Assembly: GCA_012518645.1 (NCBI GenBank)
Contig: JAAYRS010000117.1
Coordinates: 1-35,637, forward strand
Direction of reading: 5' to 3'
Length of the DNA stretch: 35,637 nucleotides
From: Bacillota bacterium
GTDB taxonomy: Bacteria; Bacillota; Limnochordia; Darwinibacteriales; Darwinibacteriaceae
Shown: piece after piece, positions 7,154-35,002 of the stretch
How positions within the stretch are numbered: the first letter of the stretch is position 1
Layout: each line of letters opens with the position of its first letter
Translations under genes and position numbers: made by a program
Notes under the pieces: model-generated
Told to the model about the DNA's origin: nothing
Databases searched by the model: none
What the model saw: the letters and a program-made list of their open reading frames with translations, nothing else

Positions 7154-9232
7154 TTACCCGGGAATGCTCCCGGGTTTTTTGTTTTCCTCTTCAGATGGAC
7201 TTGGCTCTTCGGGTTCGGTAGGTTTAGGGCTCGGTTCTTCCGGTTCAAGAGGGTCCGGGACGGGTACCTCCGGTTCTTCGGGGGCTTCCGCGGGCGGAGG
7301 CTGGGGTTCCGGGACAGTAGGCGGCGGCGGCGGTTCAGTTATTGGCGGCTCCGGCCGGGCCGGCGGCGGGGCTCCCGGGGTTGTGGGCGGTTCTTGAGGA
7401 AGCTTGGCCCGGGGAGGAGGCGCGGGGGCTTGGGCGCAAGGGGCAAATTGGACCGGCGCAGTACCCTTCAGAAAAGCATCCCTTTCTGTCTGAGGGCAGC
7501 GGCTGTTAGCCAAAAGGCCGGTAAAAACATCGATGAGGATATTTGTTTCAACGTTTTCGGGCACCTCAAATTCTCCTTTTTCGATTTCTTCCGCAGCTTT
7601 TTCCACGAACTCTGCCCAAATTTGCCTGGCTAAAGGAGGGGTCTCTTCTTCCTTATTCTCCTGCTGCTTTTGTACTAAAACACCGCTGATTAAAGCGGGT
7701 GTATAGCCTAAGCACCACTCTAGGCTGCCGTCTTGGGAAAAAGTCGTGCTGAAGGCGGCGGGCTGGTCCAGCTCTAAAGAATTTGTCATCAAAAGGTCGG
7801 TTAATAAATAAGCTTGTTCCGGGGACATAATCTGTTTCGGGGTCGGAGTTTTGTAATCCAATATTTTCCGGCCTTGGGCGTTGTTAACTTGAAGCAAGGC
7901 TTGGGCCGGGATAAAATTGCCTTTGTTGGCAAAAGGGAGAAAGGCTTGGGTCAGGTCCAAAAGGCTTAGCGGGCGGGGGAGATCCCCCATTACCAGGGCC
8001 AAATCAGCTTTACTTCGATCCAAATCCAAATTGAGCTCCTGGGCGAAATCTAAAAAGGCGGGTACACCCAATTTATCTAAGGTCCAGGCGGCCGCAGTAT
8101 TTAAATCCAAAGTAAAAGCGTGTTTCATAGTGACAGGGCCCCAATAGCGTTCCCCGCTGTTTTCAATACTAAAACCATTAAAATCCTGGGGGGCATCCTC
8201 CACTAAGTGATTTTGGGCCCAGCCTTCTTTTAAAGCCAAGGCATAAATCAAAGGGCGAAGGGTGGAACCCACTTTCTGCCGGCCTGCAGTGGCCAAGTTT
8301 TCCTGCTCTTCTTCATAGTTTAGGCCTCCGCTCATAGCTAAAATTCCCCCGGTTTGAGGATCTAAGGCCACTAGGGCACCTCCGGCGTTATGCTCTTTGA
8401 AAATACTCTCAGCTGCGTTCTGCAGTTTTAAATCCAATGATGTTTGGACCTCTAAGCCCCCTTGAAGAACCTGTTCCCGGCTGAGATCTTTTTCCAGCCG
8501 GCGCTGGACATAATCGGCAAAGTGGGGAGCGGCTCCCCTGCTATGGTGCCGGGAGGTAAGAGGTGTCTTTTGGGCTCGCTCTCGCTCTTCTTGGCTGAGA
8601 TGTCCATGCTTGTGCATTTTTTCTAAAACCAAGCCGCGCATTTCCATGGCTTTTTGAGGGTGGGCAAAGGGGGAAGCTTGTTCAGGCTCCTGGACCAAGG
8701 CGGCCAAAAGGGCACTTTCCTCTAACTGCAATTCTTGTACAGATTTACCAAAATAGGCTTGGCTGGCCGCGGCGGCCCCATAGCTGTCTTCACCAAAATA
8801 GGCTCGATTAAGGTACATCTCTAAAATCTCCCTTTTAGAATAGCGCCGTTCTATAACGGTGGGCAGGATTGCAAGTTTTAAGCGGCCCCAAGCCCCCTTG
8901 GGCTGAAAAAGTTGCTGTGCCAGGCGCTGAGTGATTGTTTTGGAGTTTTTAGAGAAGCCTTGATGTTCTTGAAAACGTTCGTCTTGGAAATCTATTATAG
9001 CTGTTTGCAGCTCCCGGGGTATTTTATCTAAAGGGGTGAAAATGATCCCAGTGCCCAGGTGTGCAATCATCGTCCCATCGCGATCATGCAAGATTGCCCC
9101 GGATTGGGGCTCCTCTTTATCGGACTCGGCCAGGACAGCCCGGGCCTGAAAAAACAAGCCGATTGTGCCGGCTAAAAGCACGGCCAGCAGGCCGGCAATT
9201 AAAACCAAATATCTTTTTTTAATTGTCCTCAT
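7154..9232 (-). CDS. class A penicillin-binding protein-like (GT51 + transpeptidase folds), predicted catalytically inactive, Pro/Glu-rich C-terminal tail
   Basis: GT51-like TITQRLAQQLF, YSKREILEMYLNRAYFGEDSYGAAAASQAYFGKS; transpeptidase-like GGALVALDPQTGGILAMSGG, GSTLRPLIYALAL, LGYTPALISGVLV. Start at ATG 9232 with CAGGAGGAAA RBS rather than 9397. Confidence 0.85.
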   Translation of the reverse strand: MRTIKKRYLVLIAGLLAVLLAGTIGLFFQARAVLAESDKEEPQSGAILHDRDGTMIAHLGTGIIFTPLDKIPRELQTAIIDFQDERFQEHQGFSKNSKTITQRLAQQLFQPKGAWGRLKLAILPTVIERRYSKREILEMYLNRAYFGEDSYGAAAASQAYFGKSVQELQLEESALLAALVQEPEQASPFAHPQKAMEMRGLVLEKMHKHGHLSQEERERAQKTPLTSRHHSRGAAPHFADYVQRRLEKDLSREQVLQGGLEVQTSLDLKLQNAAESIFKEHNAGGALVALDPQTGGILAMSGGLNYEEEQENLATAGRQKVGSTLRPLIYALALKEGWAQNHLVEDAPQDFNGFSIENSGERYWGPVTMKHAFTLDLNTAAAWTLDKLGVPAFLDFAQELNLDLDRSKADLALVMGDLPRPLSLLDLTQAFLPFANKGNFIPAQALLQVNNAQGRKILDYKTPTPKQIMSPEQAYLLTDLLMTNSLELDQPAAFSTTFSQDGSLEWCLGYTPALISGVLVQKQQENKEEETPPLARQIWAEFVEKAAEEIEKGEFEVPENVETNILIDVFTGLLANSRCPQTERDAFLKGTAPVQFAPCAQAPAPPPRAKLPQEPPTTPGAPPPARPEPPITEPPPPPTVPEPQPPPAEAPEEPEVPVPDPLEPEEPSPKPTEPEEPSPSEEENKKPGSIPG
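7156..7180 (+). terminator. rho-independent terminator for rplM-rpsI, inside the 3' end of the convergent PBP-like CDS
   Basis: ACCCGGG-AATGCT-CCCGGGT then TTTTT. Confidence 0.85.
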
Positions 9233-9510
9233 TTCCCATCTTTCCTCCTGAAAGATAGTATTTGCCCGGAAGCTCTCTTCCATGCGCCCCGCCGGAGGCG
9301 ACAGGGAGTAAATGTTTAAAACAGGATTATCCGGTATGCCCGGATAGCGCACGCTTTGCAAATAGAACGCACTAATCTGTCCGGCGGATCCTGCCAATAT
9401 CTAAAAGGCGCGCTGTAGAGGCCCTTTTCGTGGCAGTTCCACAAATTTAGCAGGGCGCGGATAAAACAGGACATTTCTCCTTCAAAGCTGACAATTGCAA
9501 CTTCTTCCAA
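9232..9510 (-). pseudogene. possible remnant of a small DsrE-like cytoplasmic protein
   Basis: TTG start at 9510 behind GGGGGGAG; 'MEEVAIVSFEGEMSCFIRALLNLWNCHEKG' and 'SICKACAIRA' recall a clostridial small-protein family, but the middle looks deleted and a family-like C-terminus (RMEESFRANTIF) continues in another frame. Confidence 0.35.
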
Positions 9511-13661: not shown

Positions 13662-14030
13662 TTTCTGGGTGGGGACGGCTTATCTTGCCGCAGGAATTAT
13701 ATTTTTACCTTTGTCCCTAAGCCCGGAGATTACCCTCGGTCATTATTTTTATTGGACCAAGCCCGCTTACTGCTACGAGCGGAAAAGGGATTAGGCTTTA
13801 TGTTCAACGCCCGGTTATGCTGCGGGACAAAGGGGGCCGGTACGCTTATCCCGCGGGTTTACCCATCATCTTTGCTTTACTAACTATCTTCTATGTCCTG
13901 GACACCCTGCAGATAGCGGAAAGCAAGTTCATCATCTTATTTTTATTTGCCTATTTGGTTTTCCAATGTAATCGGCATCGTTATTTTCCTGTACTTAAGC
14001 AAAAAACATCTAGGTTACCCCCGCTTATAT
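13648..14030 (+). pseudogene. degraded small membrane protein (DUF2178-like), several frameshifts
   Basis: MKKNNFWVGTAYLAAGIIFLPLSLSPEITLGHYFYWTKP... in one frame, ...VMLRDKGGRYAYPAGLPIIFALL...FAYLVFQ in another, VIGIVIFLYLSKKHLG in a third. Confidence 0.7.
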
Positions 14031-17000
14031 TGTCCGGGTTTGGCCGGTCTTTTCTTTCTTTTCCAGGCGGTGGAACAATTCATAGATAACGGGAATCACA
14101 AACAAGGTTAAAAACGTAGAAGTTGCCAGTCCGCCCATAATTGTGGCTGCCAGGGGCCTTTGGAATTCCGAACCCACCCCAAAACCCAGAGCCACGGGTA
14201 AAAGGCCGAAAATGGTGGTGATAGAGGTCATCAAAATGGGGCGCAGCCGTACTTGGCACGCTTCTAAGACAGCGTCCCTTACGGGCATTTGGGGCGCTTC
14301 TTTCCGCTTGAGATTAATGTAATCTACTAAGACAATGGCATTATTAACAACAATCCCTGCCAGGACGATAATCCCGATAATTGCCATAATGCCGATATTC
14401 CCGCCTACCAGCCACAAACCTCCTAGGGAACCGATTAAGGCCAGGGGGATAGAAAACATGATGATAAAGGGCTGGAGAAAGGATTCAAACTGGGCAGCCA
14501 TAACTAAATAGACCAAAGCCACCGCTAAAGCCAAGGCCAAGCCCAATTCGTCCAGGGATTCATCTATAACCTCCTGCATCCCGCCGATGTTAACATGGTA
14601 GCCCCGGGGGATTGCCATCTTTTCAATGATTTTCTGTGCGGCCTGTGTAGCTTTGGTTAAGGAAAGATCGCCTAAAATTCCGGTGACATAGATTACCGGG
14701 AGGCGGTTGGTGCGCTGAATCACTGTGGGGGCCGGCCCCACAATGGGTTCGACCACTTCGTTGAGAAGAATGGGGTTTTCCCCAAAACCACCGATTTGCA
14801 CAGGTGAAGTAATTTTTGTGTTTAATAAATCGTCCACGGAATCAACGGGAGAATTGGGCCTAAGCATTACAGGCAGAACCCGCCTTCCGATCTGCAAATC
14901 GGTTGCTTTTAGGCCGGAAGTTGCATAACGCATTCCCAAACCCACCTGCCCGGCGGTGAAACCCCCCAGGATACTGCGGGAAGTGTCCACGTTTAAAAAG
15001 AGTTCTTGGCCCCGGCGGAATTCAGAATCCTGCACGTCCCGAAAACCGGGGATTTGCCTCAATTCCCTGATTAATTCCTTGGAAAGGCCGAGTAAAACCT
15101 CAACATCTTCCCCGCGCACTTCAATTAAAAGGTTAGGCGCTAAAATAGTGCTGGCAGCCGATCCGAACAAGGAGCTGTCGGCGATATTAACCCGCAGGGC
15201 TCCGTGTTCTGTCAGCATATTCTGCAGCTCTTCGGCAATTTGGCTGCTGCTTCCTTTCCTCTGTTCGTGGGGGATTAAAGTAATGGAAAACTGGGCGTTT
15301 TCTATTCCGGTACCGGCAACCAAATCCAAAACATTCATTTCCCCTTGGTCCCCAACTTGGGTGGCAACGCTGGCTATCTCCGGGATGGCGGCCAAGTCAT
15401 CTTCGATTCCCGTGATCATCGTGCGCACTTTTTCTAAAGGAAGCCCCGCCGGCAGCATGGCGGTCACCCCTAGAAAACCCTCATCGAAACTGGGTAAGAA
15501 TTCCTGATCAAGGCTGGGGTAGATTAGAGCGGAAAAGATCAGTAAAAGTACCACAGCCCCCAGTACGATCGTTTTCTTGTCCAGTATTAACTGTAGAAAG
15601 CGGAGGTAGCCCCGCTGTACTTTTCTAAAAAGGGAAGGCTTTTTCTTGGAAGAAAGGGCCGGCCGGGTTTTTTTTCTAATGAATTTGGCAGAAAGCATAG
15701 GTATAAGTGTTAAGGCTACCAAAAGAGAAACAAGCAAAGAATAGGAGATCGTTAAGCCTAATTCTTTAAATAGCTGTCCGGCAATACTTTGGAGAAAGAT
15801 CACCGGTAAAAAGACAGCAATCGTGGTTGCTGTTGAAGCGGTGATAGCTCCCGTTATTTCCCCGGCACCGTTTTCAGCAGCTTCTTGGGGGGCCGCCCCC
15901 TCTGTTCTGTGGCGGTAAATATTTTCCAAGACCACGATGGAGGAATCCACCAGCATTCCTATGCCTAAAGCCAGGCCCCCCAAAGTCATTAGATTTAAAG
16001 AAAGATTGGAAAAATACACTAAGACAAAACTGGCAATAATTGATACGGGAATTGATAAAGCTATAATTAGAAGGCTTGGGAGGTTGCGGAGAAAAAACCA
16101 AAGTACAGCTACGGCCAAAAATCCCCCAATAAGCCCGCTGGTGGCTAAACTGCTGATGCTGTTGCGGATAAATAGGGATTGATCGGTGATTGTTGTAAAT
16201 TGAAGGTGGGGGTATTCAGCTTCTAAGCGGTGTAAAGTTTTCCGAAGATTATCTGCTACGCGCACAGTGTTTGCCCCGCTTTGGCGCATAATTTGGATTA
16301 AGGCGGTATCTTCGCCGTTAAACCGGGTTATTCCATCGCGGGGTTGCAGATGGGTGCTTACCTCAGCCACATCGGAAAGGTAAGTTAAGGAGGGGATCAT
16401 ACCGCCCAAACCGAGGATGCCGCTGCCTTGTTCCATGCCTACAATAATATCTTCCAATTCGGCGACGGTTTTAATCTCACTTCCGGCTCTGGTGCTGAAA
16501 CGAGTGTTTTCGGCGGTAACCGTCCCGCCGGGGACAACAATGTTTTGATACATTATTAATTGCTGAAGGATAACCGGCGTCAGCCCGATTTCATTTAAAT
16601 GTTCAGGGTCAAATAAGACTTGGATTTCTTCTTTGCTTGTTCCCAGAAGGCTCACTTCCGCCACGCCCAAAATCTGCTCTAACTGGGGTTTGATTTCTAA
16701 TAATTCTTCGGAAAGCTCAATAGGCGTGAGATCATCCCCGCTTACTCCCACCAGCATTAAAGGAAAATCGTTGGGGTCAACCTGGGCGACAACTGGTGTT
16801 TGGACTTCGTCGGGGAGTGTTAGGGCCGCTTGGGCCAAATTATTGCGGATATGATCCAAAGCGGAAAGCATATCCGTGCCCCATTGAAATTGGAGGGTGA
16901 TTGCGCAGATGTTGGCCATGCTGAAAGAATCTATCCTGCGCAGGCCGCTGACATTAGCTAAGGACCCTTCCACCGGTATAGTTACATCTTGTTGAATGGT

Positions 17001-17171
17001 CCTGGCTGAGCTGCCGGGATAGGGGATCACTACTACCGCTACGGGGAAGTTAAGATCAGGCAGAAGATCAATGCCAATCTTCTGCAGAGAGATGAATCCA
17101 AATAAAATTGCAATGATTACCACGACAGTAATAGCGATTGGCCTGCGGACAGCTAGTTTTGGTAATTGCAT
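14025..17171 (-). CDS. efflux RND transporter permease (AcrB/SwrC-like, HAE1)
   Basis: MQLPKLAVRRPIAITVVVIIAILFGFISLQKIGIDLLPDLNFP..., LGGLALGIGMLVDSSIVVLENIYRH; start at 17171 with GAGGAG RBS. Confidence 0.93.
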   Translation of the reverse strand: MQLPKLAVRRPIAITVVVIIAILFGFISLQKIGIDLLPDLNFPVAVVVIPYPGSSARTIQQDVTIPVEGSLANVSGLRRIDSFSMANICAITLQFQWGTDMLSALDHIRNNLAQAALTLPDEVQTPVVAQVDPNDFPLMLVGVSGDDLTPIELSEELLEIKPQLEQILGVAEVSLLGTSKEEIQVLFDPEHLNEIGLTPVILQQLIMYQNIVVPGGTVTAENTRFSTRAGSEIKTVAELEDIIVGMEQGSGILGLGGMIPSLTYLSDVAEVSTHLQPRDGITRFNGEDTALIQIMRQSGANTVRVADNLRKTLHRLEAEYPHLQFTTITDQSLFIRNSISSLATSGLIGGFLAVAVLWFFLRNLPSLLIIALSIPVSIIASFVLVYFSNLSLNLMTLGGLALGIGMLVDSSIVVLENIYRHRTEGAAPQEAAENGAGEITGAITASTATTIAVFLPVIFLQSIAGQLFKELGLTISYSLLVSLLVALTLIPMLSAKFIRKKTRPALSSKKKPSLFRKVQRGYLRFLQLILDKKTIVLGAVVLLLIFSALIYPSLDQEFLPSFDEGFLGVTAMLPAGLPLEKVRTMITGIEDDLAAIPEIASVATQVGDQGEMNVLDLVAGTGIENAQFSITLIPHEQRKGSSSQIAEELQNMLTEHGALRVNIADSSLFGSAASTILAPNLLIEVRGEDVEVLLGLSKELIRELRQIPGFRDVQDSEFRRGQELFLNVDTSRSILGGFTAGQVGLGMRYATSGLKATDLQIGRRVLPVMLRPNSPVDSVDDLLNTKITSPVQIGGFGENPILLNEVVEPIVGPAPTVIQRTNRLPVIYVTGILGDLSLTKATQAAQKIIEKMAIPRGYHVNIGGMQEVIDESLDELGLALALAVALVYLVMAAQFESFLQPFIIMFSIPLALIGSLGGLWLVGGNIGIMAIIGIIVLAGIVVNNAIVLVDYINLKRKEAPQMPVRDAVLEACQVRLRPILMTSITTIFGLLPVALGFGVGSEFQRPLAATIMGGLATSTFLTLFVIPVIYELFHRLEKKEKTGQTRTI

Positions 17172-17270
17172 ACAAGAGTCCTCCTCGGGATAAACAAATC
17201 CAAGTACAATTTCTGGACAAAAAAGAGTTATCCTGCCTTTAACTGTTGAAGAAAAAGGGGGAATTGGGGT

Positions 17271-17777
17271 GTGGGCAGATTTAACGGACAGCTTAAACAA
17301 TTTTGGGCCCTATTAATTTTAACTGTGTTTTTGTTTCTATGGTGGTTTAACTTTCCGGCAGCACCTCCTTCCCGGGAAAAACCGCCGGAAAAAAATGACC
17401 TTGAGGGCTGGCGAGCCGGATTTTCCGAAACGGACCTTGATCTTTTAGCCCGGGCTGTGCAGGCCGAGGCAGAAGGGGAACCTTACGACGGCCAAATTGG
17501 GGTTGCCGCGGTGATCTTAAACAGGGTCCGCCATCCGGAATTTCCCAATACTATCCCGGGCGTAATTTACGAGCCGCTGGCTTTTTCCATAGTAGCCAAC
17601 GGGCGGATCTACAATCAAGCCGATTCCAGGGCTTTGCAGGCAGCTCACGATGCTCTAAGCGGACTTGATCCCACCGGCGGCGCCCTTTATTTTTATAATC
17701 CCGCTAAAACCCGCAGTGCTTGGATTAAAAACAGGCCGGTTTTAAAGACCATCGGCAAACACGTTTTTTCCGGTTAG
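17271..17777 (+). CDS. cell wall hydrolase, SleB-like (Hydrolase_2), N-terminal TM anchor, no peptidoglycan-binding repeat
   Basis: LLARAVQAEAEGEPYDGQIGVAAVILNRVRHPEFPNTIPGVIYE...GALYFYNPAKTRSAWI; followed by ypeB. Confidence 0.88.
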   Translation: MGRFNGQLKQFWALLILTVFLFLWWFNFPAAPPSREKPPEKNDLEGWRAGFSETDLDLLARAVQAEAEGEPYDGQIGVAAVILNRVRHPEFPNTIPGVIYEPLAFSIVANGRIYNQADSRALQAAHDALSGLDPTGGALYFYNPAKTRSAWIKNRPVLKTIGKHVFSG

Positions 17778-17785
17778 GGGGCTGA

Positions 17786-19039
17786 GTGGTGAATTGTAAG
17801 CTCAAGGACAGGCTGATAATAATAGTGTTCGCTTTGGTTTTGCTCAGTGTGGGGTTTGCCGGCGGCCAGTATTACCTGCACCGAATTTATCAAAGGCAGA
17901 TCGAGGTCAGCTACCGGCGGGCCTTAAGCGAATTTGCCACCCATCTTCAAGAATTAACCATAGAATTAGGCCGATCCCGTTTAGCCCAAAGTGATCCGCT
18001 GCGCGATTCTATCGGTGCCGATCTGCGGCGTCTGGTTTATGCGGCTCAAAGTAATATGGGAGAACTGCCCTTAGGGGAAATTCAAACCGAACGAATCGCC
18101 GGGCTGTTGGCCCAGGCTTATAAATATAGTTTCCTTTTCAACCCGGAGCAAGCCGAACGCTTGTATCAACAAGCGGGGCGTGTCAGCAGGGGACTGCAAA
18201 ACATTTTGGTGCAAAAAGAAAAAGAATTCCCCTGGGTTTCTTGGCGGGAATACCTTGGTGCCCGTTTAACTTTTGGCGATTTGCTGCAAACTTTAGCCAC
18301 CATTAATAACGATTTAGATGAGTTCAAAATTCCTCTCAGGAAGGGGGAAATCGAGGGGGAGATAATCAGCCCCCAAGAAGCCGTTTCCCAAGCCCAAGCC
18401 TTTAGCGGAAAGCAAGAATTGGACTTTAAGGTTACCAAGGAAAGCCGGGGTTCTCCGCCAACCTACACTGTGGAAGCCCAAGGAGAGGAACAACACCTTA
18501 TTGTGGAAGTTTCTCAAAAAGGGGGGGTGGTTTTATGGATGGCCACAGTTCAAACCATTGAGGAACAACGATTAACTTCCCGGGAGTTAATCCAATTCGG
18601 AAACAGCTTCTTGCTGGAAAAAGGGTTTCCCCCCATGCATGTGACAGATCTCCAGTTACTACAGAACAAGGCTACCCTGACTTTTGTACCGGTGCGGGAT
18701 GGGATTTTGCGGTACGCTGAGCCTGTAAAAGTCCAAATCAGCGCGGCGGACGGCGCAATCTTAGGATTTTGGGGTGTCCCTTACTACCTGGCCCAAAGCA
18801 GATCAGGACAACCTTTGGAGAGAACGGCGGAACAAGAATGGGAATTGGAAGATAAAATCAAAAGGGGGGTTGAAGTCCTGGATCAAAAACTGGCTTTGAT
18901 CCTTAATGGAAAACAAGAAGAAATCCTCACTGCCCGCTTGGGGGTCCAATACGGAGAAGAGTACTATTTAATTTACCTTAATTTTGAAAGCGGCGCCGAA
19001 GAAGATCTTGTTCCAGTGGCTTCACCGGAATTCTTTTAA
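17786..19039 (+). CDS. ypeB: germination protein YpeB
   Basis: 417 aa, N-terminal TM, YpeB-type N-terminal region and PepSY-like C-terminal repeats; paired with sleB-like gene. Confidence 0.88.
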   Translation: MVNCKLKDRLIIIVFALVLLSVGFAGGQYYLHRIYQRQIEVSYRRALSEFATHLQELTIELGRSRLAQSDPLRDSIGADLRRLVYAAQSNMGELPLGEIQTERIAGLLAQAYKYSFLFNPEQAERLYQQAGRVSRGLQNILVQKEKEFPWVSWREYLGARLTFGDLLQTLATINNDLDEFKIPLRKGEIEGEIISPQEAVSQAQAFSGKQELDFKVTKESRGSPPTYTVEAQGEEQHLIVEVSQKGGVVLWMATVQTIEEQRLTSRELIQFGNSFLLEKGFPPMHVTDLQLLQNKATLTFVPVRDGILRYAEPVKVQISAADGAILGFWGVPYYLAQSRSGQPLERTAEQEWELEDKIKRGVEVLDQKLALILNGKQEEILTARLGVQYGEEYYLIYLNFESGAEEDLVPVASPEFF

Positions 19040-26396: not shown

Positions 26397-27638
26397 ATGA
26401 GAGCGTACGAACGATTATTGCGGTATTTGAAATTTGAGGCTCCGTCTGATGCCGGCAGCGAGACTTTTCCCAGCACTCCTCAACAACTTAATTTTGGGCG
26501 GTATTTAGTACAGGAAATGCGGGAATTGGGTATCCGGGATGCGGAATTAGATGAAAACGGCTACGTGTTCGGTACTATCGAATCCAACATAAAGAATTGG
26601 TCCGGGCCGGTGATTGGCTTTCTCGCTCACCTAGATACAGTCCAAGATGTACCATATCAAAATATTAAAGCTCAAATAATCGAAGATTATGACGGCGGCG
26701 ATCTTTGCCTTAATCCGTAGCAGAACATTATCCTTAGCCCTCGAGAATACGGCTCTTTGAAATCATATATCGGCCGCGATTTGATTGTCACCGACGGCAC
26801 AACCCTTCTGGGGGCGGATAATAGGGCGGGGATAGCGGAGATTATGACTATGGCCCAGGAGCTGCTAACTAATCCCGAAATAAAGCACGGCACCATCAAA
26901 ATCGGCTTCACCCCCGATGAAGAAATAGGGCGGGGGGCAGATCGCTTTAATCTGGAACGCTTTGGCGCCGATTTTGCTTATACAGTGGACGGGGGGGCTT
27001 TCGGTTCGGTAGATTACGAAACTTTCAATGCAGCTACTGCTAAAATCACAATCCAAGGCCGGAACATACACCCGGGAACAGCTAAAGGAAAAATGAAAAA
27101 CGCCGCTTTGATTGCCATGGAATTTAATGCTTTCTTACCCGTTTTGGAACGCCCGGAATACACTGAGGGATATCAAGGTTTTTACCACCTAATTGACTTA
27201 AAGGGGAGTGTAGAGCACGCTGAGTTAACTTACCTGCTGCGGGATCACTGCCGGGAAAAATTCGAGGCTAAAAAGGACACTTTGCAGCTGGCTGCGGAAC
27301 ATCTAAATTCTAAATATGGTTTGAGTACAGCTGTGGTAGAGATTGCTGACAGTTATGCCAATATGGCGGAACAAATCAAACCCCATTGGCATCTAATCGA
27401 AACGGCCTACGCCGCTGTGCGGGAGGTGGGGGGTAACCCCCAAAGCAATCCGGTGCGCGGCGGTACAGATGGCGCCCAATTGTCGTTTATGGGGCTTCCC
27501 TGCCCAAACTTGGGGACGGGAAGTCACAACCATCACAGTAAATTGGAATATGCCTGTGTCCAGGCTATGGATGACTGCGCCGCCCTCTTGGTTAGGATTG
27601 CCCAAAAATATGGGGAAGGTGAAATCAAGCGCAGGTAA
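26397..27638 (+). pseudogene. pepT: peptidase T (M20B) with one in-frame TAG (26718-26720)
   Basis: ...[54 protein letters not shown]...GGTDGAQLSFMGLPCPNLGTGSHNHHS; frame unchanged across the stop. Confidence 0.88.
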
Positions 27639-30633: not shown

Positions 30634-31941
30634 ATGCGGGAATCCATTATACCTGAAAGATTGCGAAATAAAAAGAAGGAGCGCAGGCAAGAAGGAAGCG
30701 GGAAACAGTTCAGCTTGCTCCTTTTTGCTTTGCTCACCCTAGCTTTAACGGCCTTCGGGGCTTATTATTTTCTTATTCCCAAACAAGAAAGTTTCCGGCT
30801 GGATTTTTACACTTATAGCGAAGTAGGCACCGCGGATTTTCTAGAGGCTTTGACAGTTAAAGGGACAATTGTCCCTAAAAAAATAGTGGTGCTTGAAACC
30901 AAAATCGCCGGGGTTATTGAAGAGATTTTAGTCCAGGAAGGCCAAGATGTGGATTTAGGCGATCCTCTCTTCACCTTGTATTCCTCGGAAATAGTGGCAG
31001 AAAAAAATGATGCGGAAACTGAATTAAATGAAGCTAAAATCCGGCTAGCCCAGTTAGGCTTAGATCAAGAATTGGAAATGGGAAATGAACGGATGAAAAT
31101 TCTTGATGCGGAGAAAGGCTTGGAAAGGGCCAGGGACAACCTAGGGCTGCAGCAGGTACTTTATAATTACGGTTCTATTCCCCGGATTGAACTAGAAAAA
31201 GCGGAACAAGAGGTTGAAGCCGCCGAACGGCGGTTAATCCAGAGTAAACGGGAAATGGAATTCCTGGGCCGTAAACATAGTGCTGATCAGACAGCTTTGG
31301 AAAAGACGGTAAGGATCAATGAAGACAAGTTGGCCCGGGCAATGGAAAAAATGGAAAACTTCACAGTCAGGGCCCCCTTCCCGGGACGGGTTTTATCCCT
31401 GAAAATTCCCACTAACCGGATCGTAACGGCCCACCAGGAATTAGGGGAACTGGCGGATTTAAGGGAACAGGCAGTGGAACTTCTGGCAGCACCGGGCCAA
31501 ACGGAGCGTTTTGGGCCGGGGAGCGAAGTTACCATTACCCTTGGACAAACCAAGTACAAAGGGGAAGTATCATATATCGCTCCTCAAGCCAAACAGGGCG
31601 CCGATGGCTCTACGGTCTTGGTCCGGGTTGATTTTCTAGAAGAAGCCTCTCATTTACGCCCTAACAGCGCTGTAACGGCAGACGTCCATCTGCGGCTGCA
31701 TAAAGACAGCCCGTTTTTACCCCGCGGTGCTTACCTAACCAGCGGGCAGCAGCTTTTTGTTTACGTTATCGACGGTCAAACCGCTAAGCGCCGGGAGGTG
31801 CAGTTCGGTCTCATCCAAGGCAGTGCCATTCAAATCTTAAGGGGGCTGGAACCGGGAGAAAAAGTGATTGTAAGTTCTTACGACGAATTCCGGCATTTGG
31901 AGGAAATAAAGATTAAGCCTGAAGGGGGGCATTCTTTATGA
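30634..31941 (+). CDS. efflux periplasmic-adaptor/membrane fusion protein (HlyD/MacA-like)
   Basis: N-terminal TM; biotinyl-lipoyl motif VLETKIAGVIEEILVQEGQDVDLGDPLF; long coiled coil; FTVRAPFPGRVLSL. Confidence 0.9.
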   Translation: MRESIIPERLRNKKKERRQEGSGKQFSLLLFALLTLALTAFGAYYFLIPKQESFRLDFYTYSEVGTADFLEALTVKGTIVPKKIVVLETKIAGVIEEILVQEGQDVDLGDPLFTLYSSEIVAEKNDAETELNEAKIRLAQLGLDQELEMGNERMKILDAEKGLERARDNLGLQQVLYNYGSIPRIELEKAEQEVEAAERRLIQSKREMEFLGRKHSADQTALEKTVRINEDKLARAMEKMENFTVRAPFPGRVLSLKIPTNRIVTAHQELGELADLREQAVELLAAPGQTERFGPGSEVTITLGQTKYKGEVSYIAPQAKQGADGSTVLVRVDFLEEASHLRPNSAVTADVHLRLHKDSPFLPRGAYLTSGQQLFVYVIDGQTAKRREVQFGLIQGSAIQILRGLEPGEKVIVSSYDEFRHLEEIKIKPEGGHSL

Positions 31942-32660
31942 TCAGGTTAGAGGCCATCAGCAAAGAGTATTCTCTGGGGGACGTTAAGATTAGGGCCTTG
32001 GATGACATTTTTTTGGAGATTAAAAGGGGGGAGTTTCTCTCCGTTATGGGACCTTCCGGTTCCGGAAAATCTACTTTATTAAATATTCTGGGTGTCCTAG
32101 ATCAGCCCACCGGAGGCGCCTATTATTTAGAAAATGTGGATATTACAGAACTGCGTGATCGGGAATTAGCCCGAATCCGCAATCGCCATTTTGGTTTTAT
32201 CTTCCAAAGCTATAACCTATTTCCGGAATTAAGCGCTTTAGAAAACGTTATGGTGCCCTTAATATATGCTGGGAAAACCAAAAAAGATCGCTCCAAAAGA
32301 GCCAGGATGCTCTTGGAGGAGGTGGAGATGGGCCATCGCCTCCATCATTTCCCCAATCAGCTTTCAGGGGGCGAACAGCAGCGGGTGGCTATTGCCAGGG
32401 CCTTGGCCAACAACCCCGCCCTAATTTTGGCCGATGAACCAACGGGTAATTTGGCCAGTGAGCAGAGTAAAGAAATAATGGGGCTTTTGCAGGGGCTGAA
32501 CAGCGAGGGGACCACTGTTGTTATCGTCACCCATGATCCCCGAATCAGTGCCTACGGAAAACGTGTGGTGGAGCTTAAAGACGGAGGAATTATCTCTGAT
32601 CAGCTAATAGTATTCAATAGTTACGGAGGTGCCGGCAGTGCTGAAGAAAATGCGCCGTAA
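31938..32660 (+). CDS. ABC transporter ATP-binding protein (MacB/LolD type)
   Basis: [24 protein letters not shown]..., [26 protein letters not shown]. Confidence 0.95.
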
Positions 32661-33705
32661 AGCCTTCTTTGTCCTATTCTTTTTACTTTTAAGTTTTTTG
32701 GCTGCGGAAGCGCAAGAGCTGGAATTAACCGTGAAGGATGCGGTTGCTCTAGCCCTAGAACATAATCTTGATTTTCGAATGGTTTTCTTAGATTGGCAGC
32801 AGGCTCAACAGGCTTTGGAAAGGGCCCAATTTGTTGGTGATCGGGAAATGACGGCGGCAGCAGAAAAAGAATGGCTGCAGGCGGATAAAACCTACAGAGA
32901 AAGCAGGGAAAACCTGGCTAATGTGGTCCGCAGCGCTTATCAAGAGATTCTCCAAAGGGAGAGGGAAGCTGCTGATCGTCTGGCAGCTAAAGAACGGGCG
33001 GAAGCGCAACTGAAAATCGATGAAAGCAAATACGAGGCGGGACTGTTGTCCAGCCTGGATATCCAGCGCACAAAGCACAGCCTGCATAACGCCGAATTTA
33101 GTTATCAAACGGCGCTGGTTAATTTGGCAACCAATCGTTTGCAATTCAACGAGCTCCTTGGTTTGGATTTAGGGCAGGAGCTGCTGCTGACAGAAAGCCT
33201 TCTTTTGGATTTCCTACCTTTTGATTTTACTTTAGAAGAGTGTTTTTTGCTGGCCTTAAAATTGGACGAGGGGGTTCTTCAGGCAAAAGAAGGCTTGAAG
33301 AAAGCGAAGGAAAAGGTCTTAGCTGCCCAAAGCCCCTTTACCCCTTTGGTAGAACAAGAGCAAGCTCTAGTGGCAGAAGAAAAAGCAAAAATCCACTTGG
33401 TGAAGGCTAAAAACGCCCTTTATTTCGAAATTCGGGCCGATTATTATAACCTAGAGGCTTTAGCCCATCTGGTGCAGGCTAAAGAGCGGGAAATAGAGCT
33501 GGAGCGAAAAACCCTCCAGGCGGAAGAAAGTAAATATAAAGCCGGAGTGATCAGCAATGCTCAAATCCTGGCCCAACAGGAGAAATTAGCTGCGGTGGAA
33601 CAAGAATACAGTGACGCCCTGCTCCAGTACAGCTTAAACCGAATCAAACTGCTGCAAAATATGGGTAGGGGCGAAATTCTCCGGGGTGAAGAAAATGAAA
33701 ACTGA
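32638..33705 (+). CDS. TolC/OEP-family protein, apparently lacking beta-barrel segments
   Basis: Signal peptide; two OEP-like helical repeats (VKDAVALALEHNLDF..., SKYEAGLLSSLDIQRTKHSLHNAE, SKYKAGVISNAQILAQQEKLAAVE); GTG 32638 after GGAGG. Confidence 0.8.
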   Translation: MLKKMRRKAFFVLFFLLLSFLAAEAQELELTVKDAVALALEHNLDFRMVFLDWQQAQQALERAQFVGDREMTAAAEKEWLQADKTYRESRENLANVVRSAYQEILQREREAADRLAAKERAEAQLKIDESKYEAGLLSSLDIQRTKHSLHNAEFSYQTALVNLATNRLQFNELLGLDLGQELLLTESLLLDFLPFDFTLEECFLLALKLDEGVLQAKEGLKKAKEKVLAAQSPFTPLVEQEQALVAEEKAKIHLVKAKNALYFEIRADYYNLEALAHLVQAKEREIELERKTLQAEESKYKAGVISNAQILAQQEKLAAVEQEYSDALLQYSLNRIKLLQNMGRGEILRGEENEN

Positions 33706-35002
33706 AGGATCCAAGCTTTCCTTGATTATTTTAGTATTGGTTTTAAGCTGGAATTGGCCCCTAGAAGGGGCGACCCGGGAAATTAACTCACTAGGACTAG
33801 GCCTGGAACAGGCTTTGGAGTTAGCTTTTAGCCGCAGTCCCCGCTACTCTTTGTTTCTGCGGGAATGGGAGATTAGGGAAAAACAAGCCCAAGCGGCCAA
33901 AGGCCCCGCTTTTAAGGTGAGTGTAACCCCGATGGAAATAGAAAACGGTGCTTGGGAAAAACCTCGGGGCCGGATTAATCTCAGCCTACCTTTAGGTTCG
34001 GCTGTTGATTTGGGCGCCTCTTTAAGTTTTAAATTTGATCAAAGAAAATTAGAAGCCGTCCCGGAGGGTTCTATAAATTTAGATTACAGCTTCTTTGCTC
34101 AAGAAAAGGAGCCGCAATCGCCGGCGGAAAGGGGCTTACTGGATCAAAAAAACGCGTTGGTGCTGGAGGTTACGGATCTTTTAATTGAATTAAAAAGCAA
34201 ACTCAACCTAGAGGAATACCTGCAAAAAAGGTATGAGTTTTTACAAAAGTCCCTTTGGGCCGCCGGCCTTACCCCTAATTACAGCGATCTAAGCCTTAAG
34301 GCTGAAATAAGGGGGGCGGTTCAGGACTTGGCCCATTTACGGGGTGAAATTGATCTGCTGCAAGTAAAGCTGGACTCTCAATTGCAAACGGGAACAACTG
34401 CTTATCAGCCGTCTATAACCGTAAGGGATCCGGAGTTTGTTCTCGATTTTGCAGCCTATCAAAAGGAATTATTCGCATTTAACCCCAATTTACGGTTGGC
34501 GCGGGAAAAACTGAAAGCCGCCGAGGCGGAGTTAACCCAGGTGAAAAAAACCAGGGGCTGGGACCTTAAAGCCCGGGGCCAAATTAATCTGGACACCACT
34601 TGGAGTATAGGGTTAACAGCCAAAAAAGAATTTTCCTCGCCTGGGGTTAGGCTGCAGGAACTGGAGTTGGAGCTGGCTCAAGCAGAGCTTGCTTTAGAAG
34701 AACAGGAACTGAGCCTGAAAAACCAGCTGAGGGAAGCCCTGCAAAGGGTGGATTCCGCTTTAACCAATATTGAACTGCAGGCAGAACACCTAGCAGAGGC
34801 CCAAGAAGATTTAGCATATACTCAACGTCAATTCCAGGTTGGTTTGGCAGCTGAATTGACCTTGAAAGAAGGGGAGCTGGCGGTGCAAAAGGCGCGGTTT
34901 GAGTACGCTAATGCCCAATTTAACTATGTCCAAAGCGTCTTGCGCCTCTATGGGCAATGCGGACGCGATTTAAGGCAGGAAGTTAAAAAATTGATGAAGT
35001 AG
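33686..35002 (+). CDS. second TolC/OEP-family protein
   Basis: Signal peptide; LEQALELAFSRSPRYSLFLREWEI; beta-like segments RINLSLPLGSAVDLGASLSFKF; C-terminal OEP helices (RQFQVGLAAELTLKEGELAVQKA). Confidence 0.8.
   Translation: MKKMKTEGSKLSLIILVLVLSWNWPLEGATREINSLGLGLEQALELAFSRSPRYSLFLREWEIREKQAQAAKGPAFKVSVTPMEIENGAWEKPRGRINLSLPLGSAVDLGASLSFKFDQRKLEAVPEGSINLDYSFFAQEKEPQSPAERGLLDQKNALVLEVTDLLIELKSKLNLEEYLQKRYEFLQKSLWAAGLTPNYSDLSLKAEIRGAVQDLAHLRGEIDLLQVKLDSQLQTGTTAYQPSITVRDPEFVLDFAAYQKELFAFNPNLRLAREKLKAAEAELTQVKKTRGWDLKARGQINLDTTWSIGLTAKKEFSSPGVRLQELELELAQAELALEEQELSLKNQLREALQRVDSALTNIELQAEHLAEAQEDLAYTQRQFQVGLAAELTLKEGELAVQKARFEYANAQFNYVQSVLRLYGQCGRDLRQEVKKLMK

Follow-up and report, generated by a model that had tools for sequence, protein, structure and literature searches.

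A class A penicillin-binding protein homologue with substituted motifs at both active sites, conserved in six genera of Bacillota behind a forespore-type promoter

Possible essential, non-catalytic roles of cell-wall synthases are usually probed with engineered mutants, and the degenerate LytM activators EnvC and NlpD illustrate how dead cell-wall enzyme domains can regulate live ones. In Bacillus subtilis, a catalytically inactive mutant of the penicillin-binding protein (PBP) PBP2B still supports division (PMC5656894), and two PBPs of the forespore, PbpF and PbpG, take part in building the germ cell wall (PMC9600426). The forespore LytM protein SpoIIQ of this species has lost its catalytic His, is seemingly inactive and has a structural job, several clostridial SpoIIQ proteins being intact (PMC4982068). 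Here we describe a natural class A PBP homologue that is predicted to have lost both of its activities, encoded within a 35,637-nucleotide stretch of contig JAAYRS010000117.1 (assembly GCA_012518645.1, a Bacillota bacterium), which is referred to below as the window.

The gene is an uninterrupted ORF of 692 codons (Table 1); an in-frame TTG at 9397 offers a longer ORF, but it lies 5′ of the ribosome-binding site. Both domains of the protein score above the Pfam cut-off, Transpeptidase (PF00905) with an E value of 2.5e-11 and Transgly (PF00912) with an E value of 1e-33, the latter match covering profile positions 68-178 only. The AlphaFold model is confident overall (pLDDT 88.3, pTM 0.81) and within the GT51 remnant, where pLDDT is mostly 88-98 and the lowest block, of 75, falls near residues 91-100. 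The listed Foldseek matches were all PBPs, those of class A being the best. These domain matches and the predicted fold, together with the phylogenetic tree and the gene order shared with motif-intact orthologues, establish the window protein as a class A PBP in both descent and fold. Its Pro/Glu-rich tail is also found, as a consensus feature, in catalytically intact orthologues.

Table 1. Positions of the features discussed, in window coordinates
Feature	Position	Strand	Basis or detail
Class A PBP homologue, predicted catalytically dead, 692 aa	7154..9232	-	start ATG 9232
Forespore-type (sigmaF/sigmaG-like) promoter box	9256..9285	-	GCATG 9285-9281, 18-nt spacer, AATACTA 9262-9256
AGGAGG ribosome-binding site	9244..9249	-	11 nt 5′ of ATG
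N-terminal cytoplasmic tip and membrane helix, residues 1-38	9119..9232	-	sequence; AlphaFold helix 2-39
GT51 domain remnant, residues ~40-222	8567..9115	-	Pfam Transgly and model
Motif-1 catalytic Glu to Gln83	8984..8986	-	alignment
Deletion point F93/S94, 18-20 residues of donor-site/jaw loop	8951..8956	-	alignment; main gap at ~8954/8953
Motif-3 catalytic Glu to Leu120	8873..8875	-	alignment
Transpeptidase domain, residues ~284-520	7673..8383	-	Pfam, AlphaFold/Foldseek
SxxK to STLR, S323-R326	8255..8266	-	Lys to R326 at 8257-8255
SxN to DLN, D376-N378	8099..8107	-	Ser to D376 at 8107-8105
KTG to STT, S495-T497	7742..7750	-	alignment
Pro/Glu-rich C-terminal tail, residues 601-692	7157..7432	-	sequence; disordered in AlphaFold model
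AcrB-type RND pump	14025..17300
sleB-ypeB spore germination pair	17271..19039
PepT-like M20 peptidase, two same-frame ORFs	26397..27638		split by in-frame TAG 26718-26720
HlyD-like adaptor, ABC ATPase, two TolC-like outer membrane efflux (OEP) proteins	30634..35002		consecutive

A first-pass annotation, made from the sequence alone, had reported that all five key catalytic sites of an otherwise well-formed gene were changed. When we located the catalytic columns by alignment with 31 motif-intact orthologues, they fell exactly where that annotation had placed them and nowhere else in the protein; the five substitutions were correct to the codon, and the uninterrupted ORF, ribosome-binding site and Pro/Glu-rich tail that it described are all present. 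The same alignment revealed how consistently these sites have changed among the family members that share the substituted form. In the glycosyltransferase, the motif-1 column holds Glu in all 30 intact orthologues with sequence there and another residue in 14 of 18 substituted members, the jaw loop being absent in the four that still have Glu; at motif 3, Glu (30/31) or Asp (one) in the intact proteins is replaced by a non-acidic residue in 18/18. In the transpeptidase, the SxxK Lys (K326 in 31/31 intact orthologues) has become Arg in 18/18, the SxN Ser (S376 in 31/31) has become Asp in 19/19, and the KTG Gly (G497 in 31/31) is found in none of 18. The window protein retains the nucleophile Ser323, the SxN Asn and the motif 4/5 region of its GT51 remnant.

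Two lesions can be added to the original five. The segment from motif 1 to TITQ spans 33 residues in the window protein instead of 53, which indicates loss of the donor-site/jaw loop; in addition, GGSTITQQ has been eroded to NSKTITQR. Across the substituted members this segment measures 19-34 residues, the deletion being larger in most of the others than in the window protein, which forms the deepest branch of their clade; that the deepest branch has more of the loop left fits a stepwise erosion. The GT51 Glu residues, the donor-site loop, SxxK, SxN and KTG are thus all missing from the window protein. It could be argued that the protein continues to catalyse with changed residues, Arg serving for the SxxK Lys for instance, or that one of its activities survives, as the nucleophile Ser is kept in 12 of 18 members and the motif-1 Glu in four. 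But this Ser is replaced by Thr or Gly in the other six, the SxN Ser, the KTG Gly and the motif-3 Glu are gone in all, and the donor loop is deleted, which makes such an enzyme barely credible. Each activity would need to survive several independent lesions, of the kind carried by 19/19 family members with the substituted form, and for this reason we treat both as lost; by its motifs, the homologue is almost certainly catalytically dead. Sequencing error or chance as the source of the motif changes was ruled out, because the pattern is common to 19 genomes.

Relatives were searched for by protein, by Pfam family and by a profile of the substituted clade, in contigs from metagenome-assembled genomes called Bacillota, Firmicutes or Clostridia; the sample comprised 23 genomes of the window's family and 73 of the whole class, including three single-contig class members (G040, G051 and G057) of ~71-73% GC. 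For the class Limnochordia, Limnochorda pilosa is described as a Gram-negative spore-former in the title of a work cited in PMC11456536. The substituted form occurs in 19 of the 23 family genomes, representing six genera (g1, g2, g3, g6, g8 and g9), so that orthologues with the same substitutions do exist, while the remaining four (G003, G004, G006 and G011, from g4, g5 and g7) carry a motif-intact orthologue at the same locus. The profile, which gave 987-1241 bits for the 15 near-complete substituted proteins and at most 733 for motif-intact orthologues, did not detect the substituted form in the 50 class genomes outside the family, where the motifs were read directly in 27 orthologues and the remainder were classed by the bit-score gap. 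In a tree built with the motif columns excluded, the substituted proteins form one clade with support 100/100, on a long stem (0.76), and the four family members with intact motifs are its sister group. Both kinds of locus have the gene order ecfA1-ecfA2-ecfT-truA-rplM-rpsI-PBP-trx-RND-sleB-ypeB in common, indicating vertical descent at a single locus.

The window contains other features worth recording. The row of HlyD-like, ABC and TolC-like genes and the AcrB-type RND pump, in a Bacillota genome, are hints of a diderm or otherwise unusual envelope. The reading frame of the PepT-like M20 peptidase gene stays open through its internal TAG, which may reflect a nonsense mutation, an assembly error or recoding.

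The substituted gene shows the marks of selection. Its ORF is intact in every genome where a contig end does not cut it, and core dN/dS is ~0.15 in both domains, as measured in genus g3 (dS ~1.3), genus g9 being saturated; the motif-intact class A paralogue of the same g3 genomes has a dN/dS of 0.044, so that selection on the substituted form, though purifying, is some 3-fold more relaxed than that on the paralogue. At 16 positions the substituted and intact clades are each near-invariant for differing residues, including the changes of K to R326 and of S to D376, and the replacement of the KTG Gly by Ser (in the window protein, by Thr497). The new fixed residues of the substituted clade are W115, R117, P124, R326, D376 and L424, and W115, R129, H236/H342, R362, E562 and Q581 are near-invariant in that clade only. 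A second member, which lacks the whole loop, was likewise modelled with confident GT helices (pLDDT 82.3). The increasing loss of GT-loop residues within the clade, the long stem branch and the looser dN/dS could be taken to describe a pseudogene in slow decay, drifting after its activity was no longer needed. This explanation, which we consider very improbable, has to contend with intact ORFs, a dN/dS of 0.15 for either domain, newly acquired residues that do not vary, a conserved promoter and ribosome-binding site, and a confidently predicted fold. Given the intact ORFs in six genera, the core dN/dS, the newly fixed residues and the intact predicted fold, the gene is very probably maintained rather than decaying, as the first-pass annotation had supposed; with its catalytic residues lost, its fold kept and purifying selection acting across lineages, the protein is, by sequence and predicted fold, a pseudoenzyme.

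Among the fixed residues, Arg326 and Asp376 would lie opposite one another in what used to be the active site, possibly joined by a salt bridge. This bears on the possibility that the protein senses the cell wall or muropeptides, or acts as an unreactive decoy to which lipid II or peptidoglycan binds. Such a role would suit a membrane-anchored extracytoplasmic protein that retains a pocket fold and the acceptor-side GT motifs, but the Arg-Asp pair would probably fill the pocket and the cytoplasmic tail is short and has no signalling domain; we regard it as improbable, and covalent beta-lactam sensing is excluded by the loss of the acylation motifs.

The family genomes are well supplied with other synthases. 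A second GT51 protein above the Pfam cut-off is present in 23/23, all 20 of the class A paralogues that we aligned have every motif, including the copy in the window's own genome (G000:C59), and SEDS matches (2-4 each) and further transpeptidases are found in all of them. By gene content and motifs, catalysis is thus covered by other enzymes, and the separate active class A PBP that the first-pass annotation had suggested looking for is present. The combination of an intact paralogue in every genome with 2-4 SEDS matches would also suit a regulator instead of a scaffold: much as degenerate LytM activators do, it could act allosterically in the forespore to stimulate or inhibit either the intact class A PBP or a SEDS/class B synthase; the invariant residues confined to the substituted clade are in keeping with this. 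Yet the paralogue shows no obvious change between genera with the substituted and the intact form, and a scaffold would leave identical traces. We judge regulation in place of scaffolding to be unlikely.

The first-pass annotation had also raised a possible link to spores, which is supported by several lines of evidence, beginning with a conserved forespore-type promoter. This box lies ~20 nt 5′ of the start codon in 21/21 family members with upstream sequence. Its -35 element is GCATG (GAATG in two members), its spacer is 18 nt (17 in one) and its -10 element has the form RATACTA (CATACTA in one, GATAATA in one). We take the B. subtilis forespore consensus to be GHATR-N18-CATWHTA, by which sigmaF and sigmaG are not separable and for which a literature search turned up no paper; all 21 boxes have at most one mismatch to GHATR-N17..19-CATWHTA. 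At the same loci, ecfA1, truA, rplM and trx have 2-4 mismatches in all but one case. Perfect matches also precede the distant intact orthologues in G041, G050 and G055, and several intact orthologues of family f3 have a -10-like match only. Across the family genomes, 119 exact matches to the box were found versus 45 for a reversed control, genome-wide matches of the ...CTCCAATACTA type, which resemble coding sequence, having been set aside. The same box occurs at the identical spacing, 19 nt 5′ of SpoIIQ-like M23 genes, and a variant precedes a gene for a small acid-soluble spore protein, SASP (L126). It was not consistently found 5′ of sleB, and sleB was for this reason left out as a positive control. 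The box is absent 5′ of the class A paralogue, where no clear promoter was found; on that account, we do not assign the paralogue to sigmaA control.

Gene content points in the same direction. SigG, present in 23/23 family genomes, SASP, and the SleB-YpeB pair that lies in the window mark the organism as a spore-former by gene content. At most loci the sleB-ypeB pair keeps its synteny with the PBP gene. Class-wide, the PBP gene occurs in 56/65 SigG-positive and 3/8 SigG-negative genomes, a weak co-occurrence (Fisher p 0.005, ignoring phylogeny; p 0.08 on the best genomes only). The SigG-negative genomes that have the gene are G035, G046 and G068, the other 5/8 being without it, and it is missing in 9/65 SigG-positive genomes; one SigG-positive family, f11, is without it. 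The conserved promoter makes it probable that the substituted PBP is expressed in the forespore.

Other genes came to light in the course of this survey. The SpoIIQ-like M23 proteins (L121 = G000:C106, L128, L129, L142 and L153) read FNAGIQ or FNAGIE at the site of what is presumably the M23 HxxxD motif, which suggests that they are degenerate too; such proteins occur in both substituted-PBP and intact-PBP genera. In genomes with the substituted PBP, a small protein of 61-63 aa (...NPEL..CSLADV...; L119, L139 and L148) is encoded behind a conserved forespore-type promoter and is possibly an uncharacterised forespore protein. A conserved protein of 90-95 aa (...LVDHAIL..QAAERKYMYWL...; L122, L141 and L149) is also encoded behind the forespore-type promoter.

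Read from the sequences, the motif loss, its single origin, and the conservation of the gene and its promoter are established. We favour the explanation, with a probability of roughly 0.6, that a forespore class A PBP has been turned into a pseudoenzyme with a scaffolding or regulatory part to play in the forespore envelope. The ancestral gene would have encoded a forespore-type bifunctional class A PBP, of the kind still motif-intact in the sister genera, and both active sites would have been lost in the ancestor of the six-genus clade, the glycosyltransferase losing its donor-site/jaw loop and the transpeptidase pocket gaining the fixed Arg and Asp, while the class A fold, membrane anchor and Pro/Glu tail were retained. 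Transcribed inside the forespore, as its promoter implies, the protein would then most probably be a non-catalytic structural or regulatory part of the forespore envelope machinery, holding or tuning active synthases (for instance the remaining class A PBP or SEDS/class B pairs) or, alternatively, binding the nascent germ cell wall. The structural, scaffold or sensor role proposed in the first-pass annotation is plausible, and the chances of a structural scaffold against some other non-catalytic role are evenly balanced.

If this explanation holds, both domains of a class A PBP would have been naturally stripped of catalysis with their structure kept, and the motif-intact orthologues that occupy this locus in sister genera would be matched controls. 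The forespore-type promoter points to a defined developmental stage for the non-catalytic role. The odds are even that a synthase has been converted in both domains to a dedicated non-catalytic forespore morphogenesis protein in six genera. Such a sporulation component would be of a kind that the literature searched does not describe. Phrase matching in open-access papers, aimed at naturally inactive PBPs or pseudo-PBPs, at class A members without activity and at SxxK loss, found no natural precedent; this is a weak form of absence. For annotation, these findings serve as a warning that the label PBP1A, when assigned by homology, can fall on a protein that does not react with beta-lactams.

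The window protein resembles bifunctional class A PBPs such as Staphylococcus aureus PBP2 and Escherichia coli PBP1b in the order of its domains, in its fold (with a Foldseek TM of up to 0.63 against E. coli PBP1b), in its membrane anchor and by sequence homology, and differs from them in having no catalytic motifs and a deleted donor-site/jaw loop. With B. subtilis PbpF and PbpG it shares class A descent, a forespore-type promoter and a spore-forming host, a likeness by expression, but these are germ cell wall synthases, which by its motifs the window protein cannot be. EnvC and NlpD offer a parallel from a hydrolase family, whereas the present protein belongs to a synthase family. PBP2B provides the precedent of a PBP needed structurally without catalysis, although in that case the inactive protein is a laboratory mutant of a class B PBP whose wild type is active, and here the change is natural and concerns class A. 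SpoIIQ has an unrelated fold and a known partner, SpoIIIAH, but on our reading of the substituted PBP the two would be alike in being forespore membrane proteins derived from cell-wall enzymes, each having lost catalysis and taken on a structural role.
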